A DNA stretch of 64,000 nucleotides from Nitrospira sp. (GTDB lineage: Bacteria > Nitrospirota > Nitrospiria > Nitrospirales > Nitrospiraceae), in contig JABMDL010000002.1 of assembly GCA_015903945.1 (NCBI GenBank), forward strand, positions 1 through 64,000, written 5' to 3'. Positions 28,605 through 29,225 of this stretch are shown here, in pieces (the stretch's first letter is position 1; each line of letters begins with the position of its first letter). Below the pieces are notes generated by a model, which searched no databases, was not told where the DNA came from, and worked only from the letters and a program-made list of their open reading frames with translations. The position numbers and the translations under genes were made by a program.

Positions 28605-29012
28605 ATGGACCATACACTCACCATTTCTGAACCCAGCGGGCCGTTTCGAGAACCGAGGGAGCCTGTCTTTTCATATGACTACTCGATTCAACGCGCCACG
28701 TGGGCGACACCGCATGGAGTTCGTGTCAAAGTGTCGATTCCAGGCGAATTGGACGTATTGAAGATCCGATTAATGGGCCAGGTCACCGGATCCCCAGGGC
28801 AGCAATTGATTATCGGAAACGTGCTATCGCGTCAGATCGCGGATTGGAAGCTGCGTATTGCCGAGACGGAAGGCATGTTGGCTGAACGGCGTGATGTCAA
28901 GATCGAACCCTATACCGGTGCATCGGCCCATCTGTTTCCCAAGCTCGCCCTGTTGTTCGAAGAAGGCAAACACAGGGTGCGCGAGGAGGTCCGAAGACGT
29001 GTCGGGCTCTAG
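28605..29012 (+). CDS. Hypothetical protein, unknown family
   Basis: 135 residues from ATG 28605 (MDHTLTISEPSGPF), preceded by GAGGG; the open frame continues upstream to 28353 but crosses the promoter and the Sel1 gene start. The middle (GVRVKVSIPGELDVLKIRLM, SPGQQLIIGNVLSRQIADW) looks mixed alpha/beta; the end is helical and charged (FEEGKHRVREEVRRRVGL). No motif that I recognise. Its stop codon lies within the first bases of the 217-bp palindromic element, so an insertion may have set or altered the C-terminus. Confidence 0.6.
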   Translation: MDHTLTISEPSGPFREPREPVFSYDYSIQRATWATPHGVRVKVSIPGELDVLKIRLMGQVTGSPGQQLIIGNVLSRQIADWKLRIAETEGMLAERRDVKIEPYTGASAHLFPKLALLFEEGKHRVREEVRRRVGL

Positions 29013-29225
29013 CCCGCATTATTCATGAACGCTTCTACTGCAACCGCCGATACGCCGCTACGACAAGCTTGGCCGTGGTCTCTTCACGGCCAAGCGGGCA
29101 GGCTCGCCCTTCGTGACCTCAACATACTGTTTCAAGTATGCTTCGGTCTCTCAAGGCTCCGCGTGCCCGTCTCACATGGCGTCTTAGCGGTTTCGTGACG
29201 AACCGTCATGAATAATGCGGGCTAG
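29009..29225. mobile_element. MITE-like palindromic element, 217 bp
   Basis: Perfect 20-base terminal inverted repeats (CTAGCCCGCATTATTCATGA at 29009-29028 and its reverse complement at 29206-29225). Pairing continues imperfectly inward for about another 25 bases. Inside is a perfect 10-base stem, CTTGGCCGTG-GTCTCTT-CACGGCCAAG (29068-29094). There is no open frame of note. The size, termini and lack of coding capacity fit a non-autonomous transposable element or a large intergenic palindrome. No target duplication could be confirmed. Confidence 0.6.

Follow-up and report, generated by a model that had tools for sequence, protein, structure and literature searches.

A family of non-autonomous elements (MITEs) with IS1380-type ends and a 4-bp YTAR target duplication in Nitrospira

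The window analyzed in this study, a stretch of 64,000 nucleotides from Nitrospira sp. (assembly GCA_015903945.1, contig JABMDL010000002.1, positions 1 to 64,000), carries at positions 29013-29221 a non-autonomous element (MITE) with 16-bp inverted repeats and a duplicated CTAG, most likely moved by an IS1380-family transposase in trans (probability about 0.85). The element belongs to a multi-copy family, 4 bp of its target are duplicated, a relative possesses the corresponding empty site, and its ends resemble those of IS1380 elements. Mobilization in trans by an IS1380 transposase is suggested by sequence comparison; this family is the most likely mover because IS1380 genes of relatives lie between ends of the same kind beside CTAG and one such gene in another phylum is accompanied by an exact end. 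The initial annotation, which had read the region as a non-autonomous element moved by a transposase encoded elsewhere, is thereby supported and was essentially right, each of the checks it had suggested having turned out in its favor.

The 217 bases at 29009-29225 comprise the 209-bp element (CCC...GGG), delimited by its copies in the own genome and in relatives and by alignment, and a 4-bp CTAG duplication on each side (29009-29012 and 29222-29225, neither assigned to a strand). The element lies on the plus strand with its left-type end first. It starts with the terminal inverted repeat CCCGCATTATTCATGA (29013-29028, plus strand) followed by the left-type subterminal sequence ACGCTTCTACTGC, and ends with the right terminal inverted repeat (29206-29221, minus strand), whose right-type subterminal sequence ACGGTTCGTCACGAA is read on the minus strand. 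With 209 bp and perfect 16-bp repeats, it lies within the size range of MITEs (<600 bp, with terminal inverted repeats). The perfect 20-base ends described in the initial annotation are exact, 29009-29028 and 29206-29225 being perfectly complementary, but only 16 of these bases form the repeat and the remaining 4 are the palindromic CTAG target duplication. The palindrome itself is real: the region folds as a near-complete palindrome, far beyond shuffled sequences (z of -8.9 for DNA and -11.2 for RNA; 0 of 200 shuffles as good). The internal stem previously given as 10 perfect bases is present with a length of 11 bp (GCTTGGCCGTG/CACGGCCAAGC, 29067-29095, plus strand) and is joined by a second hairpin with a 6-bp stem (CATACT-GTTTCA-AGTATG, 29123-29140, plus strand); both are supported by compensatory changes across copies. 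Coding content was rightly denied: an open frame spans much of many copies, with codon-position variability flat and frames not conserved as coding, and this possibility was rejected. The overlap with the upstream stop codon was likewise correctly seen. The TAG of the upstream ORF (28605-29012, plus strand, 135 aa, no match in Pfam and NCBIfam) lies inside the left CTAG, and the end of this gene is intact.

The own genome (2.95 Mb in 116 contigs) has 27 places that match the 217 bases. These are nine full-size copies including the one in the window, five copies of 183-195 bp, and fragments. The eight other full-size copies are 84-89% identical to the window copy. The end alone, allowing up to 2 mismatches, occurs 36 times in this genome versus once for a reversed control. 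The family was also found in 73 out of 146 relatives, among them members of further genera within the taxonomic family and some genomes from elsewhere in the order, and the loci of the named collection that share both the MITE end and the subterminal sequences carry titles of Nitrospira or Nitrospirae. Two pairs of identical copies, each pair at unrelated flanks, were present in the relative G067, and copies 98-99.5% alike in G010, G065, and G031. Thus, the family has moved recently in relatives, as G067 shows, whereas no recent burst is seen in the window's genome, where the best pair of copies is 91% identical and identical repeats collapse in a draft assembly. The earlier suggestion of recent activity is therefore borne out by relatives and not by the genome in which it was made.

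The flanks of 139 distinct copies were compared. CTAG on both sides was the commonest arrangement (39 copies), and 51 copies had identical 4-bp flanks, 9 of them the non-palindromic CTAA. The fourth base of the right flank can be predicted from that of the left flank (Fisher P 3e-6); the same applies to the first base (P 3e-4). The target duplication is 4 bp in length, YTAR and mostly CTAG, since bases outside the TA also covary between the flanks, which would not be the case for a 2-bp duplication of TA. The latter, known from the IS630, IS5 or Correia type, appeared likely on the first few copies and was rejected on the 139.

Empty sites, which the initial annotation had proposed to look for, were found in close relatives with a single CTAG at the corresponding position. 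G060, 93% identical over the flanks, has one CTAG, and the TAG that closes its upstream ORF is the same one; the insertion hence left the upstream gene uncut. This single CTAG and the 4-bp duplication over the 139 copies define 29009-29012 as the left target duplication. The site is also empty in G062, and the empty sites of three other copies hold one YTAR each (TTAA, CTAA, and TTAG). The window copy was inserted after its lineage split from that of G060, into the CTAG holding the upstream stop codon, and duplication of this CTAG restored the stop. In G046 (L276, contig C31, 12145-13470), about 1.3 kb of unrelated DNA replaces the intergenic stretch at the position of the window insertion.

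Insertion at stop codons is a frequent feature of the family. Among copies with enough flank, the duplication coincided exactly with the stop codon of an ORF of at least 90 aa in 33 out of 69 cases, versus 121 out of 636 nearby unoccupied YTAR sites (P 4e-7; P 0.005 among non-coding sites). After orthologous sites were merged, this was so for 27 of 65 independent insertions. The best interpretation of this excess is that harmless insertions have survived, because a stop codon is re-created when the YTAR on it is duplicated, and on both strands at once where the ends of convergent genes overlap; a targeting preference for stop codons is another possible reading. An orientation bias at stop codons (24 vs 7 at first) was dropped after merging of orthologous sites (17 vs 7, P 0.06). 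In several species, copies of partly differing sizes (L075, L079, L085, L098, and L318) abut the stop of apparently orthologous ORFs of about 367 aa, reflecting either one old insertion that these species have in common or several insertions at the same site.

The "inner decay" noted initially is a poor description of the element's interior, as compensatory changes preserve part of the pairing there. An RNAalifold consensus of 73 aligned copies contains 38 pairs, 26 of which show at least one double (compensatory) change. Double-change cells numbered 127 versus 27 in shuffles, and covariation was 0.192 versus 0.104, with 0 of 500 shuffles as high. Sliding the partners by 1-3 columns reduced paired cells from 96% to 30-43%. 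Together with the 27 independent copies abutting stop codons, these changes would fit a structured functional element that is spread by transposition and kept for its structure, for example as a 3'-end RNA hairpin of terminator-like or stabilizing function or as a single-stranded DNA or cruciform signal. Several results argue against this explanation, which we consider improbable. G-U pairs were not preferred over A-C mismatches in the aligned copies (61 vs 48, P 0.25), and hence selection on one RNA strand left no visible sign. A search with Rfam covariance models yielded no match at E up to 1, no T-run terminator was found at the element's end, the orientation bias is only 17 vs 7 without orthologous sites, and copies come and go between species. 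Paired changes can also arise by template switching in hairpins, and both this process and the relatedness of the copies can contribute to the covariation signal. Selection on a folded single strand in the wider sense is rather unlikely, whether it served transposition, with the folded DNA being recognized, or some role at the 3'-ends of genes. If it did occur, a mobile element would have spread a structured 3'-end module abutting stop codons across many Nitrospira species.

A transposase gene with the same kind of ends, the partner expected for a non-autonomous element, was found in relatives by searching for PF13701 genes. One PF13701 subgroup forms elements of 1.69-1.74 kb bounded by CTAG and MITE-like ends. 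Its transposases belong to IS1380 according to both NCBIfam NF033539 (332-372 bits, cut-off 180 bits) and Pfam PF13701. The ends of these elements are CCCGGATTATTCATGA in L107, CCCGGATAATTCACGA and CCGGGATTATTCATGACGGT in L110, and CCCGGATAATTCAGGA and CCCACATTATTCATGACGGT in L388. Within the genus they match the 16-bp MITE end at up to 15 out of 16 bases, and no IS1380 element with exact CCCGCATTATTCATGA at both ends was found there. The right-type subterminal bases CATGACGGT are common to the MITE, L388, and L110, and the right end of L388 (CATTATTCATGACGGT) extends its match into these bases. In contrast to the IS1380 elements, the MITE has 209 bp and lacks a transposase gene, and similarity comprises the ends and a few subterminal bases, with no interior homology found beyond them; a type I origin, by internal deletion from an IS1380 element, may be considered. 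Outside the genus, a Krumholzibacteriia MAG (L209) contains an IS1380 gene, and the exact 16-mer end lies beside TTAA at about 120 bp upstream of it. According to the proposed mechanism, an IS1380-family (DDE) transposase would recognize in trans the CCCG(C/G)ATTATTCATGA end and the YTAR target, cut out the MITE, and insert it at YTAR with a 4-bp duplication. The own genome encodes an IS1380 transposase (L111, contig C25 of G000) that is 79-83% identical to L108-L110 and L388 and is preceded by CTAG-CCTGAATAATGCACGA. This copy may be dead, since about 14 residues of its relatives are missing and the right end of the element is off the contig.

Over 87 genomes, 37 contained both the MITE and a PF13701 gene, 32 only the MITE, 3 only the gene, and 15 neither (P 0.007, kinship ignored). 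No PF13701 gene was detected in the copy-rich genomes G082 (130 ends) and G023 (37 ends, one contig), and none of the 80 listed cross-phylum loci encodes an IS1380 relative beside the MITE. These observations would suit a mover from another YTAR-using family, for instance IS701, known from ISfinder to use such targets as well, or a domesticated transposase encoded by the host. The only transposase genes found between such ends in the PF13701 search are nevertheless IS1380. Moreover, a MITE is expected to persist longer than the transposase that helps it, and IS copies, when repeated, frequently drop out of draft assemblies. Copy-rich genomes without the gene could reflect loss of the helper or gaps in the assembly. 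A different mover is quite improbable. A palindromic regulatory site that occurs once and is conserved at a fixed position has no evidence in its favor, is refuted by the multiple copies and by the empty sites in G060 and other relatives, and has practically no probability left.

The preferred reading, a MITE moved by an IS1380-family transposase, places the family among elements of known kind. The piggyBac transposons of animals are related to IS1380 and have the target TTAA. They share with the Nitrospira MITE a palindromic, TA-centred duplicated target of 4 bp, and TTAA is among the MITE targets; the MITE differs in being bacterial, in its ends, and in its consensus target CTAG. Correia elements of Neisseria and TIMEs of Pseudomonas likewise are small, non-coding elements with terminal inverted repeats, a target duplication, and a strong predicted fold (PMC4133298). 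TA is given as the usual duplication of MITEs, and Tn3-type TIMEs of Pseudomonas duplicate 5-6 bp (PMC4133298), whereas the Nitrospira MITE has a 4-bp YTAR duplication and IS1380-type ends. The literature was searched for the end sequences, for MITEs associated with IS1380 and for MITEs in Nitrospira, and neither a description of the family nor a printed end sequence emerged. As no earlier description was found in the papers searched, the family is apparently undescribed. Nitrospira, the main nitrite oxidizers, thereby gain a MITE family with a defined YTAR target, a proposed IS1380-family helper, and clear empty sites.

Some loci contain MITE ends farther apart. In L068 (2805-3378; contig C72 of G000), two ends lie about 565 bp apart around a 106-aa ORF, which by its sequence looks like an antitoxin-type regulator and possibly represents a passenger gene in a MITE. 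In L137 (969-3069; G061), two ends, each beside CTAG, are located 2.1 kb apart around a 391-aa ATPase-like gene. This may be a rearranged locus rather than a mobile cassette, because a segment of about 50 bp is repeated outside and inside the end-to-end interval. Long two-end intervals (C62, 27334-31086; G061, 3733973-3736064) were rejected as transposase carriers, as they contain ordinary genes.

Near-identical ends on short elements were also found in Myxococcota, Planctomycetota, Gammaproteobacteria, Acidobacteriota, and other phyla, and hence MITEs of the IS1380 type could be far more frequent than the searched literature suggests. Among the listed loci L153-L272 (e.g. L160, L169, L178, L192, L196, L223, and L225), which come from these groups, Krumholzibacteriia, and others, the 20-mer CTAGCCCG(C/G)ATTATTCATGA bounds short elements, mostly of 150-225 bp with differing interiors. 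A second end was located within 700 bp in 64 of the 120 loci listed with this end. The smallest form seen was in a Myxococcales MAG (L198, 2043-2076), where two ends face each other head to head, separated by hardly any sequence (CTAGCCCGGATTATTCATGAACAATCCGGGCTAG).
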